The position numbers and the translations under genes were made by a program. Below are positions 54,859 through 59,972 of a stretch of 64,000 nucleotides of DNA, one piece after another; the stretch's first letter is position 1; every line of letters begins with the position of its first letter. The notes beneath the pieces were generated by a model. That model was given only the letters and a program-made list of their open reading frames with translations. It was not told the origin of the DNA and made no database searches. The stretch comes from Pseudomonadota bacterium (GTDB taxonomy: Bacteria > Pseudomonadota > Alphaproteobacteria > Acetobacterales > Acetobacteraceae): contig JAJZGI010000003.1 in the NCBI GenBank assembly GCA_021798575.1, positions 23,067 to 87,066 of the forward strand, written 5' to 3'.

Positions 54859-55575
54859 TCAGTCCCCAGGAAACACGAGCACCGGCGTCGCGCGATAGGT
54901 TTTCGGAAATTCCCGCGCCAGATTCTGTACCTTCGGGATATCGTTGATCACGATATACGGATAGTCCGGGTGACGCACCAGAAAATCCTGGTGATAATCC
55001 TCCGCATGATAGAACGCCATGCGCGGCGCGACCTGCACGACGATCGGCGCGCCGAACACCCGTGCTTTGGTGAGCTGCGCGATATAATCCGCCGCGATCT
55101 TCGCCTGCACCGGCCCCGCCACCCATATCTCGGAGCGATATTGCGTACCGCTGTCCGGCCCCTGGTAGTCCAGCTCCGTCGGGTCGGCCGCAACGCTGAA
55201 ATAGATCTGCAAAATTTTCCCGTAGGAGATGATTTTCGGGTCAAAGCTGATCCGCACGCTCTCCGCGTGCCCGGTCGTGCCGGTGCTCACCAGCGGGTAG
55301 GTCGCGGTATCGGCCGCCCCGCCGGTATAACCGGCGTATACATGCGTCACCCCCCGCACATGCTCAAAAACACCCTGCATACCCCAGAAACACCCGCCCG
55401 AGAGCACCGCCGTCTCACTAGCCGCCGCATCGGGCGGATTATAGGCGGGTGCGGGCACCGCCCCGCCTGGTGCCGCCTGCGCCCGCCAATGCGCGCCCAT
55501 GCCAACCAGCCCGAGCGCCAGAATTACCGCTGCGAACAACCAGCCAGACCACCGCATCGCCAACTTCATCCTCAT
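54859..55575 (-). CDS. msrA: Peptide-methionine (S)-S-oxide reductase
   Basis: VLSGGCFWGMQGVFEHVRGVTHVYAGYTGG, YRSEIWVAGPVQ, FYHAEDYHQDF. Confidence 0.95.
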   Translation of the reverse strand: MRMKLAMRWSGWLFAAVILALGLVGMGAHWRAQAAPGGAVPAPAYNPPDAAASETAVLSGGCFWGMQGVFEHVRGVTHVYAGYTGGAADTATYPLVSTGTTGHAESVRISFDPKIISYGKILQIYFSVAADPTELDYQGPDSGTQYRSEIWVAGPVQAKIAADYIAQLTKARVFGAPIVVQVAPRMAFYHAEDYHQDFLVRHPDYPYIVINDIPKVQNLAREFPKTYRATPVLVFPGD

Positions 55576-55623: not shown

Positions 55624-56727
55624 CTAAAACAAACTCATCTGCTGCACCTCTCGCGCGGCGTGCGGCACGCAGAAGCTCGAATGGTCCAGCGCCGCCTGCC
55701 CGCCATCCAGCCCCAGCTGTCGGGCCGCGCGCGTAAAGCGCTGGCTCATCAGCGCCGCATAGGGGCCGCTGCCGGTAAAGCGCGTATGAAAATCCGGGTC
55801 GTTCAGCCGCCCCGCCCGGCTCTGGCGGATCAGGCTCAGCACATGCGCCGCGCGCTCGGGCATATGCTGGTTCAGCCAGTCGGTGAACAGATCCCCCAGC
55901 TCATGGGGCAGGCGCAGCAGCAGGGAGTGCGCGCTGCGCGCCCCTGCCTTCGCCGCGGCGGCCAGAATCGCCTCCAGCTCCGCGTCGTTCAACCCGGGGA
56001 TCATGGGTGAGGCCAGCACACCCGCCGGAATCCCCGCCTCCGTCAGCGCGCTGATACACGCCAGGCGCCGCATGGGTGCCGCCGCGCGCGGCTCCATCGC
56101 CCGCGCCAGCGCCGGGTTGAGCGTGGTGATGGAGAGATACACCCGCGCCAAATTCCTGCCCGCCATCCGCGCCAGAATATCCGCATCCCGCAACACGCCG
56201 GCGGATTTGGTGACGATACTCACAGGGTGGTTGAACCGCTCCAGCACCTCCAGCACCGCGCGGGTGATCCCCAGCGTGCGCTCCACAGGCTGATAGGGGT
56301 CGGTGTTGGAGCCGAGCATGATGGTGCCGGGTCTGTAGCCAGGGCGGGAGAGTTCCTTCTCGAGCAGCCGCGCGGCCTCCGGCTTGAAGACGATCTTGGT
56401 CTCGAAATCCAATCCGGCGGAGAGGCCAAGATAAGCGTGGCTCGGCCGCGCGAAGCAATAGATACAGCCATGCTCGCAGCCACGATACGGGTTCACGCTG
56501 CGGTCAAAATTCAAATCCGGGCTGTCGTTGCGGGCGATGATGCTGCGGCTCGCATCGCGGATCAGAATCGTGCGGGGCGCGTCCTCTTCCGGGGGCTGGT
56601 CCCAGCCGTCGTCGAACGCCTCCGTCCGCGCCTGCTCAAACCGGTTGGCCGGTTGCAGCCCGGTGCCGCGGCCCTTGTGCGCGCCCGGCTGCTGGGTGGT
56701 GATGCGTAGCGCTGCGGCCTGTCCCAT
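55624..56727 (-). CDS. PA0069-like / spore-photoproduct-lyase-like radical SAM protein
   Basis: NPYRGCEHGCIYCFARPSHAYLGLSAGLDFETKIVFKPEAA; CXXXCXXC. Confidence 0.92.
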   Translation of the reverse strand: MGQAAALRITTQQPGAHKGRGTGLQPANRFEQARTEAFDDGWDQPPEEDAPRTILIRDASRSIIARNDSPDLNFDRSVNPYRGCEHGCIYCFARPSHAYLGLSAGLDFETKIVFKPEAARLLEKELSRPGYRPGTIMLGSNTDPYQPVERTLGITRAVLEVLERFNHPVSIVTKSAGVLRDADILARMAGRNLARVYLSITTLNPALARAMEPRAAAPMRRLACISALTEAGIPAGVLASPMIPGLNDAELEAILAAAAKAGARSAHSLLLRLPHELGDLFTDWLNQHMPERAAHVLSLIRQSRAGRLNDPDFHTRFTGSGPYAALMSQRFTRAARQLGLDGGQAALDHSSFCVPHAAREVQQMSLF

Positions 56728-56780
56728 ATGTTCATGCTCCGTTCAGGAGTCATCACATCATTTCGGTCACCATCTGTCAA

Positions 56781-56795
56781 GAACAAAGTAAGAAC
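56781..56795 (-). promoter_or_regulatory. Alphaproteobacterial LexA (SOS) box GTTCTTACTTTGTTC
   Basis: Exact GTTC-N7-GTTC on the minus strand; next six bases TTGACA form a -35 element upstream of the radical SAM gene. Confidence 0.65.
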
Positions 56796-56797
56796 AC

Positions 56798-57337
56798 TTA
56801 CTTCGGAAGATGCTCCTGCAACCTCGGCATCAGCTCCACCAGGTTGCAAGGCCGATGCCGGGAATCGAGCTGGTCGCGTAGAATCCCATCCCAGCCGTCC
56901 TTCACCGCGCCGGTGCTGCCGGGCAGCGCAAACAAATAGGTCCCAGCCGCTACCCCGCCCACCGCGCGGGACTGCATCGTCGAGGTGCCGATCTTCTGGT
57001 AGGAGAGCATGCGGAACAACTCGCCAAATCCCTCGATCACCTTGTCCAGCACGCGACCAAACGCCTCGGGCGTCACATCGCGCCCGGTCACGCCGGTGCC
57101 GCCACTCGTAATCACCACATCCACTTCGGGGTCCGCGATCCAAACCCTCAGCTGCGCGGTAATCTCCAACATATCGTCACGGATAATCCTCCGCGCGGCC
57201 ACATGATGCCCGGCCTGCACAATCCGCGCCGCCAGCGCGTCGCCCGAGGTGTCATTGCCCGCCACCCGCGTGTCGGAGATGGTCGCCACCGCGATATTCA
57301 GCGGCAAAAAACGCGCGGTCTCGTCGATGCCGATCAC
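56798..57337 (-). CDS. moaB: Molybdenum cofactor biosynthesis protein B
   Basis: TISDTRVAGNDTSGD, DVVITSGGTGVTGRDVTPEA. Confidence 0.93.
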   Translation of the reverse strand: MIGIDETARFLPLNIAVATISDTRVAGNDTSGDALAARIVQAGHHVAARRIIRDDMLEITAQLRVWIADPEVDVVITSGGTGVTGRDVTPEAFGRVLDKVIEGFGELFRMLSYQKIGTSTMQSRAVGGVAAGTYLFALPGSTGAVKDGWDGILRDQLDSRHRPCNLVELMPRLQEHLPK

Positions 57338-57340
57338 AGG

Positions 57341-58990
57341 CTAATTCGCCCAGGCGGTGGCGAAATCCACGTTCAGCTGCGGGAAATTGCCCTCCGCCAG
57401 CGCGTCCAGGCTTTCCGGCTTCAGGCCGATCTCCTCGGCGTATATCCAGCTATCCGCCAGCACCTGATGCACGAATCGCCGCGTCTGGTCGTTGGGGATG
57501 GTCTCGATGAACATCAGCGGGTCGCTGTTGGCGTGCAGCCGATCATACCAGGCGCTGGCCGCCCCCGGCCCGGCGTTATAGCTCGCGAGAATCGCCAGCA
57601 GATTGCCGTCGATCCCCGGCTGCTGGCTCAAATAACGAATATATCCTTGGCCCAGCGCCAGATTATCCGAGGCGTCATAGATCGAGCCGCTCAAACCTTC
57701 CCGCTCGCGCACATAATAGGCGGTCTGCGGCATCAGCTGCATCAGCCCGCGCGCGCCGACGGGCGAGACGGCATTCGGGTTGAAGCCTGACTCGGTGCGC
57801 GCCAGCGCATAGACGAGCGAGGGGCTGATCGTGAACCCGCCCATCGGGTGCAGCGCTGGCAGCGGCAGCCTGGCGCCGGCGATCTCATCCACCGGGCTAG
57901 GCAGCCGCCCGGCGATGGCGATGGTTACATTCACCAGCCCGGCCCGCGCCGCCACCGCCATCACGGCGCGCCCCAGCCCCGGGTCGGCCTGCATCTGCGG
58001 CCAGAGCGCCCGTAGCGCCAGGCTCGCCTGGCGGGTCTCCCCCACCTGCAACAGCTCCAGCGCCAGTTGACCGTCCGGCGTCGAGTCCACGGCCGTCACG
58101 TCGGCCTCGGTCAGCGTCGCGGCGATCCCGGTCGGCCCGAATCCCTGGCCGAGCAGCCGCCCCGCCAGCATTCCGTAAAAACTATCCTCGTTCCACGCCG
58201 CCTGGTGCAGGTCGCTCAAATACAGCTCTGGCTGCTGCAACCGCAGCGCGGCGCGCGCCGCCCAAAAATAGCCCGCGGCCCGGTCCTCGCCGGAGATTCC
58301 GGTCATCCGCGCCGCGCCGCTGAAGTCCGCGCCCGCACCGGCCAGGTCGCCCGCCTTCCACGCGCTGATCCCGCGCATGAAGCGCTCCCGCCATGCCGGC
58401 CCATCGGTCGCAAAAACCGGCGGGGCCGCGGCGCCCGACGTCATCGTCGTCTCGGGCAGCAGCGCCACGCGCGGCGGCGCTGGCAGCGCGCTGGCAGGCA
58501 TCTTCAACTGCATGAGGTGGTAGATCGCCGGCGCCTCAGGCTGGTCGCCATATTTCGCGTACCACGCCCGCAGCTCCGCCGGGCTGGTGATATAATTCGG
58601 CCCCAGATATTTCTCCGCCAGCACCGGCCCCACAAGCGAGGTATCCTCCAACCGCCCCATCAGCCGGTCGGCCTCGCTAAAATCGCCGCTGCGCTGCAAA
58701 GCCAGAATCCGCCCATAGATCGCCACGTCGCTGGGTGCCAGCGGCTGCGGCAGGATAATCTCGACATTGGGGGAGGGCGCATTGCGCGGCACGGCATAGG
58801 CTACGCTATAGCCACCATTCGCGCCCGGCGGCGCTGAGGGGGGCGGCATCGGTCCCGTAGCCCGTCCCGCAACCGGGGATTCCGCCCTGGCATTCGTGAG
58901 ATCCACGACACCGAGGGCAAAAACGCACGCCAGAAATAACACGATTCTGGCGGCATCCAGGCGGGAGAGCATGTTGAGGGCTCCTCGCAT
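57341..58990 (-). CDS. Lytic transglycosylase domain protein (Slt-like)
   Basis: SLVYALARTESGFNPNAVSPVGARGLMQLMPQTA..., ILASYNAGPGAASAW; start near 58990, not 59230. Confidence 0.93.
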   Translation of the reverse strand: MRGALNMLSRLDAARIVLFLACVFALGVVDLTNARAESPVAGRATGPMPPPSAPPGANGGYSVAYAVPRNAPSPNVEIILPQPLAPSDVAIYGRILALQRSGDFSEADRLMGRLEDTSLVGPVLAEKYLGPNYITSPAELRAWYAKYGDQPEAPAIYHLMQLKMPASALPAPPRVALLPETTMTSGAAAPPVFATDGPAWRERFMRGISAWKAGDLAGAGADFSGAARMTGISGEDRAAGYFWAARAALRLQQPELYLSDLHQAAWNEDSFYGMLAGRLLGQGFGPTGIAATLTEADVTAVDSTPDGQLALELLQVGETRQASLALRALWPQMQADPGLGRAVMAVAARAGLVNVTIAIAGRLPSPVDEIAGARLPLPALHPMGGFTISPSLVYALARTESGFNPNAVSPVGARGLMQLMPQTAYYVREREGLSGSIYDASDNLALGQGYIRYLSQQPGIDGNLLAILASYNAGPGAASAWYDRLHANSDPLMFIETIPNDQTRRFVHQVLADSWIYAEEIGLKPESLDALAEGNFPQLNVDFATAWAN

Positions 58991-59124
58991 TTCCAACCCG
59001 TATCGATTCGCCCCATGAGATGCAAGAGGTTCCCATGAGAATTGTCTCACAGAATGAGGCAGAAAAAAGGCAAAAAAGGCTTTTTGATGGCCTCCATCTC
59101 GCGTTTTCGTGAAAATCCAAGCCC

Positions 59125-59886
59125 TTAACCCGGCCCTCCACCCAATTCTAAAAATTCCCTTATTTTTAATAAATCCGCCCACGCATCGGCTTTGGCGGCG
59201 GGCACACGCTGCAGATAGGCCGGATGCCAACTCGCCAGGCAGGGAATCGGTGCTTCACCCGGCACCGCCAATTCCCGCCAATTCCCGCGCAACCGGCCGA
59301 TGCCCGGGGCCTCACCCGGCAGCGCCTTCGCCGCCACCGCGCCCAGCAGCAGCACACAGCTGGGCCGCACCAGCGCGATATGGCGCAGCAAAAACGGCAT
59401 ACAGAGCATGATCTCGCTCACAGTCGGGCTGCGGTCCCCGGGTGGCCGCCACGGCAGCACATTCGTCATCCGCACCTCGCCCCGCGCAAGGCCGATGCTG
59501 CCCAGCATCCGCTCCAGCAACTGCCCGGCCGGGCCGATGAACGGCCGCCCGGCACGGTCCTCCTCGGCGCCCGGCGCCTCGCCCACCAGCATCAGCCGCG
59601 CGCTCATGGGCCCATCGCCGAACACCAGCCGGGTCGCGGTCTCGCGCAGCGCGCAACCGGTGAATCCCGCCAGCGCCTGCTCCAACGCCGGCAAACTCTC
59701 GCACCCCTGGGCAATCCGCGCCGCCTCGGTCGGCCCGGCTGGCAACGGCGCCGCTTGCTGCGCCGCGCGCGCGCGCGTCGCCGGCGCCTCAGCTGCGGCA
59801 ATCCGCCGGTCCTGTGCCGCCTCCAGCAGCGCCTCATCCGCCCCCCAGGCCAGTTGCAGCGCCAGCGCCGCGCGGTCATCGCTCAT
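59125..59886 (-). CDS. Uracil-DNA glycosylase
   Basis: LMLVGEAPGAEEDRAGRPFIGPAGQLLERML, TNVLPWRPPGDRSPT, SWHPAYLQRVP. Confidence 0.92.
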   Translation of the reverse strand: MSDDRAALALQLAWGADEALLEAAQDRRIAAAEAPATRARAAQQAAPLPAGPTEAARIAQGCESLPALEQALAGFTGCALRETATRLVFGDGPMSARLMLVGEAPGAEEDRAGRPFIGPAGQLLERMLGSIGLARGEVRMTNVLPWRPPGDRSPTVSEIMLCMPFLLRHIALVRPSCVLLLGAVAAKALPGEAPGIGRLRGNWRELAVPGEAPIPCLASWHPAYLQRVPAAKADAWADLLKIREFLELGGGPG

Positions 59887-59972
59887 GCCCCAACCTTCAT
59901 CGCTGTCTCGCTTTACTGCCCCGCTATATTCCCTATACCACGCGCCGTGAACCAGTGATGAAGGAGCCACAG

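Follow-up and report, generated by a model that had tools for sequence, protein, structure and literature searches.

The question raised by this locus is whether a gene for a radical SAM protein in an Acetobacteraceae genome (Pseudomonadota bacterium) belongs to the DNA-damage regulon, and how its promoter is laid out. In the window (the whole stretch of DNA that was analysed, 64,000 nt), an earlier note had described the arrangement GTTCTTACTTTGTTC-TTGACA-N17-TGTGAT upstream of this gene, and direct reading of the sequence confirms it: on the minus strand the box, the two hexamers and the ATG at 56727 follow one another in this order (Table 1). The note had assigned to the span 56728-56797 one LexA box. 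That box (box 1) stands, but a second exact box (box 2), on the opposite strand within the same span, had been overlooked. In the direction of the gene, box 2 reads GAACGGAGCATGAAC; it is inverted with respect to box 1, lies at an offset of 51 bp from it, and sits between the -10 element and the ATG. The upstream gene is moaB, whose stop codon adjoins box 1, and which is outside the regulated unit.

Table 1. Features of the radical SAM gene and its promoter region (positions in the window).
Feature	Position	Strand	Basis
LexA box 1, GTTCTTACTTTGTTC	56781-56795	-	Exact match; abuts the -35 element; conserved in the family and fused to TTGAC
-35 element, TTGACA	56775-56780	-	Sequence; in 68 of 75 anchored family loci, box 1 runs directly into TTGAC
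-10-like element, TGTGAT, 17 bp from the -35	56752-56757	-	Sequence; preceded by a TGn extended -10 (TGA)
LexA box 2, GTTCATGCTCCGTTC	56730-56744	+	Exact match; offset of 48-52 conserved in the family
Possible Shine-Dalgarno GGAG, within box 2	56737-56740	-	Sequence; putative
PA0069-family radical SAM protein gene, 367 aa	55624-56727	-	NF033668, 494 bits (curated cut-off 360); PF04055
moaB (molybdenum cofactor biosynthesis protein B)	56798-57337	-	TIGR02667, 247 bits

To judge by the genes that carry it, GTTC-N7-GTTC is the LexA motif of the source organism. The genome encodes one LexA (TIGR00498, 173 bits; LexA DNA-binding domain and S24 peptidase), and exact boxes are found upstream of lexA and recA, between the divergent uvrA and ssb genes, and just before uvrB. 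Exact boxes were also seen elsewhere in this genome. One (G000:C83:34637-34651, L027) separates a small ORF from a divergent, repressor-like S24-peptidase gene and may be the switch of a prophage or mobile element; two (G000:C11:9951-10459, L005 and L006) lie near and inside a gene whose product has an M78 peptidase domain of the IrrE/ImmA type, which may mark a damage-responsive mobile element; and an AT-rich one (G000:C94:25819-25833, L030) lies at the end of an ORF, just upstream of a 179-aa protein with no Pfam match. The double operator is not a general feature of SOS genes in the source genome: when its other boxes were scanned for a second box (at most one mismatch, within 120 bp), second boxes were sporadic and at other spacings.

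On its own, a single exact box is not significant, since 0.79 matches are expected per shuffled window (of the same size and composition), and the 30 matches in the 2.37-Mb source genome compare with 17 for a reversed control pattern. It could be argued from this that the boxes are chance matches and that the gene has no LexA control, one exact box being what a window of this size and composition should contain anyway. The orthologues decide the matter. A GTTC-N7-GTTC box is present in 93 of 110 orthologue upstream regions, against a mean of 1.2 and a maximum of 5 in Markov-shuffled controls, so that the conservation which the earlier note proposed to look for is indeed there. The spacing between the two boxes is kept across diverged DNA, and orthologues from Pseudomonas carry a different LexA box that matches their own lineage. 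Two exact boxes within 66 bp, together with conservation in orthologues, are far beyond chance; conservation and spacing rule out a chance origin, to which we give practically no credence.

All six Pseudomonas orthologues (L102, L103, L107, L119, L126 and L136), and one labelled betaproteobacterial (L109), have a perfect CTGT-N8-ACAG at the start of the gene, this being the E. coli-type LexA box, and GTTC-N7-GTTC is absent there. On the evidence of these promoters, LexA control of the gene appears to persist when the recognition motif is a different one. In alphaproteobacteria outside the Acetobacteraceae, a single box is found upstream of the gene. In these loci (L079-L141) the orientation of the box relative to the gene is nearly constant, the exceptions being L115 and L129, and the box often contains TTG where a -35 element could lie. 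Many loci come from draft or metagenome-assembled genomes, and organism names may be wrong: L104, labelled Mycobacterium, groups with the alphaproteobacteria in the protein tree. The boxes of the orthologues, the lineage-matched boxes and the presence of the motif at lexA, recA, uvrB and uvrA/ssb all support, as a prediction, the original proposal that the radical SAM gene belongs to the DNA-damage regulon.

The geometry of the promoter was analysed upstream of the gene in 77 Acetobacteraceae loci. Almost every locus represents a different genus, and some come from draft genomes or metagenome bins. In 75 of the 77, a box 1 with no more than one mismatch served as the anchor. Box 1 is exact in 71 of the 75, and TTGAC directly follows it in most (Table 1). 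At offsets of 48-52, an exact inverted box, GAAC-N7-GAAC, is found in 52 of the 75 loci, compared with a single occurrence over the 286 other offsets within 150 bp; when one mismatch is allowed, the numbers are 56 loci and 12 occurrences. A second box in the same orientation was found at these offsets in none of the 75 loci, which rules it out as the arrangement. In the 56 pairs, the intervening stretch of approximately 33-37 bp shows hardly any conservation. The exceptions are the TTGAC, which almost every pair has, and, at a distance of 17 bp from the -35, a weak -10 whose A and T stand where they should. The boxes therefore stand out as footprints. Across the family, the -10 has A (60%) and T (66%) at this spacing, and the TGTGAT of the source genome has G instead of A. 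Box 2 begins about 7 nt past the -10 and mostly ends 5-6 nt ahead of the first in-frame start codon, and for this reason it is predicted to overlap both the transcription start and the ribosome-binding site.

Outside the letters used in the search, both boxes, each read in its own orientation, never have a purine at position 11 and favour T at position 9. These common preferences favour one protein reading both boxes. The spacer of box 2 is more G/C-rich than that of box 1, and box 2 may be the weaker of the two. Roughly a quarter of the family loci do without it, and it is therefore not essential.

The pair pattern was found in 79 of 150 Acetobacteraceae genomes, usually once per genome, whereas the reversed control matched in 2 genomes; in alphaproteobacterial genomes outside the family it was found in none of 285. 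Thirty pair loci were fetched, and 26 of them adjoin the radical SAM gene. Two others (L164 and L166) are short, the contig breaking off before the gene could appear, and the remaining two (L160 and L165) have other spans and no adjoining radical SAM gene. The pair is thus restricted to one family and, within it, essentially to this gene. The gene itself was undetected in 20 of the 100 family genomes scanned for it, and small genomes (about 2-3.5 Mb) are frequent among these 20. In a tree of the 110 proteins, all pair-bearing rows fall within one clade of 47 rows (SH-aLRT 99), with 6 state changes, and the basal members of this clade, including Acidisoma, have one box. This fits one gain of the pair within the family followed by several losses, although these are parsimony counts on a quick tree, which do not prove direction. 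A clade-specific double operator is the best reading of this distribution.

Taken together, the promoter sequences make it likely that the radical SAM gene belongs to the LexA/SOS regulon and that, in most Acetobacteraceae carrying it, the promoter has a LexA operator on each side. Box 1 abuts the -35. Box 2, which is inverted, lies between the -10 and the start codon and would cover approximately +1 to +15. In the undamaged cell, LexA at box 1 would deny access to the -35, LexA at box 2 would prevent initiation or escape, and the outcome would be tight repression. On DNA damage, RecA filaments would trigger self-cleavage of LexA, both boxes would empty, and the enzyme would be made. Here the occupancy of both boxes by LexA, their joint repression and the transcription start are what we infer. 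A further possibility, which we hold to be rather doubtful, is that the pair is a cooperative unit. The offset of 51 bp is just under five helical turns, which would put two LexA dimers on much the same side of the DNA; they could then touch over the promoter, either directly or with the help of a bend, and keep it closed. Since box 1 and the -35 have a set position relative to each other, as do the -35 and the -10, a spacing set by contact between LexA dimers and one set by promoter geometry both fit. If the cooperative pair were true, the gene would respond to damage later or more sharply than single-box SOS genes, and the operator geometry would be one for LexA that was not found described in the literature searched.

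Box 2 could also be explained without a second LexA site. The gene would then be a single-operator SOS gene, with box 1 as its LexA site, and box 2 would be read by another regulator, or would be a ribosome-binding or leader-RNA element with a chance double GAAC. Several observations point this way: box 2 is where the mRNA presumably begins, it includes an SD-like RGGA, and in most loci about 6 nt separate its end from the start codon; with the start codon usually 5-6 nt past the box, a ribosome-binding site can explain part of the purine-rich sense strand; and alphaproteobacteria outside the family do with one box. However, the two GAAC halves of box 2 are equally conserved, and the upstream one, at some 17-21 nt from the start codon, is too distant to belong to a ribosome-binding site. 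The half-site, the 7-nt spacing and the preferences at positions 9 and 11 match those of box 1, and in loci where the ATG is farther downstream, box 2 is still at about +51. We consider this explanation unlikely. Less probable again, and in our view very improbable, is that box 2 acts mainly as a roadblock against read-through from moaB; the pair would then insulate the gene and not tighten the promoter switch. The source genome would suit such a role, for moaB is the next gene upstream, has the same orientation and ends beside box 1, but moaB was found next to the gene in only a minority of pair loci, in some of them in the opposite orientation, and the pair persists.

Downstream of the radical SAM gene, and 48 bp after it, the window contains msrA (54859-55575), whose product has a likely N-terminal membrane or signal segment; in the source genome the two could be co-transcribed. 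A conserved operon is ruled out: msrA was found beside the gene in none of the other loci, the genome-derived ones being covered to about 1.5 kb of flank. On the upstream side (56798-59970) are moaB, a lytic transglycosylase and a family-4 uracil-DNA glycosylase, and moaB and the lytic transglycosylase are also near the radical SAM gene in several other alphaproteobacteria.

The encoded enzyme is a member of the PA0069 family (NF033668, Table 1). It has a Cx3Cx2C cluster motif, C84-C88-C91, and across 33 orthologues these three cysteines are invariant, as is the tyrosine just before the third. The earlier note had called it photoproduct-lyase-like. As regards the fold this holds up: the six best PDB matches of an AlphaFold2 model (mean pLDDT 77) are all spore photoproduct lyase (SPL) structures, namely 4fhc and mutants, with E 2.5e-7 to 9.3e-7, about 15% identity and TM 0.46-0.58. 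On this model the enzyme resembles SPL in fold. By sequence, phmmer found no relatives in the PDB, profile matches there were weak and at chance level, and a profile comparison with an SPL fragment gave a weak match that stops short of the C141 region. SPL requires a hydrogen-donor cysteine, C141 in B. subtilis (PMC5368176), and here the likeness does not hold, as no conserved counterpart of it was found at the sequence level in the 33 orthologues, where only the three cluster cysteines are conserved. SPL activity of the enzyme is unproven, and a role in DNA repair is what we infer from the predicted SOS regulation.

SOS control of this gene is supported here but is not new. That splB-like genes of alpha- and betaproteobacteria are under SOS control was predicted in 2012 by a comparative genomics study (PMC3323433); it has an SplB/COG1533-like alphaproteobacterial gene with a GTTC-N7-GTTC box, read as an SOS photoreactivation enzyme, but covers multi-chromosome species and, in the part of its text available to us, mentions no second inverted operator. 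The same text states that splB regulation was not observed in gammaproteobacteria, whereas the six Pseudomonas CTGT-N8-ACAG boxes suggest that the trait is present there too. The available parts of two further reports place a COG1533 or radical SAM gene in a LexA regulon, by prediction for splB-like genes in Bacteroidetes (PMC8565304) and with ChIP-seq and RNA-seq support for vnz_31145 in Streptomyces venezuelae (PMC9380542), the latter being likened by class and not as an established orthologue; the LexA motifs differ and no paired inverted operators are noted in those parts.

More than one LexA operator per promoter is also known from E. coli. Its lexA promoter has several LexA boxes. Its recN promoter has up to three LexA sites, according to PMC3323433. 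In contrast to both, the boxes described here are asymmetric direct repeats in opposite orientation, flanking the core promoter at 48-52 bp. No description of the paired arrangement was found in the open-access literature searched, most subscription papers lying outside that scope. Single-box SOS control having already been predicted, the new element is the inverted second box at about 51 bases across the promoter. For PA0069 itself, a P. aeruginosa SOS study reportedly offers possible experimental support, to which no weight is given here.

These results give a radical SAM enzyme that is widespread but uncharacterised a firm place in the predicted DNA-damage response, because its alpha-, beta- and gammaproteobacterial orthologues carry the LexA motif of their own lineage. 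They also point to a natural experiment in SOS operator design, in which one promoter gained a second, inverted and position-locked operator in one family while its relatives keep one. Single-box relatives thus offer a direct comparison for what a second LexA operator does to repression and to timing.
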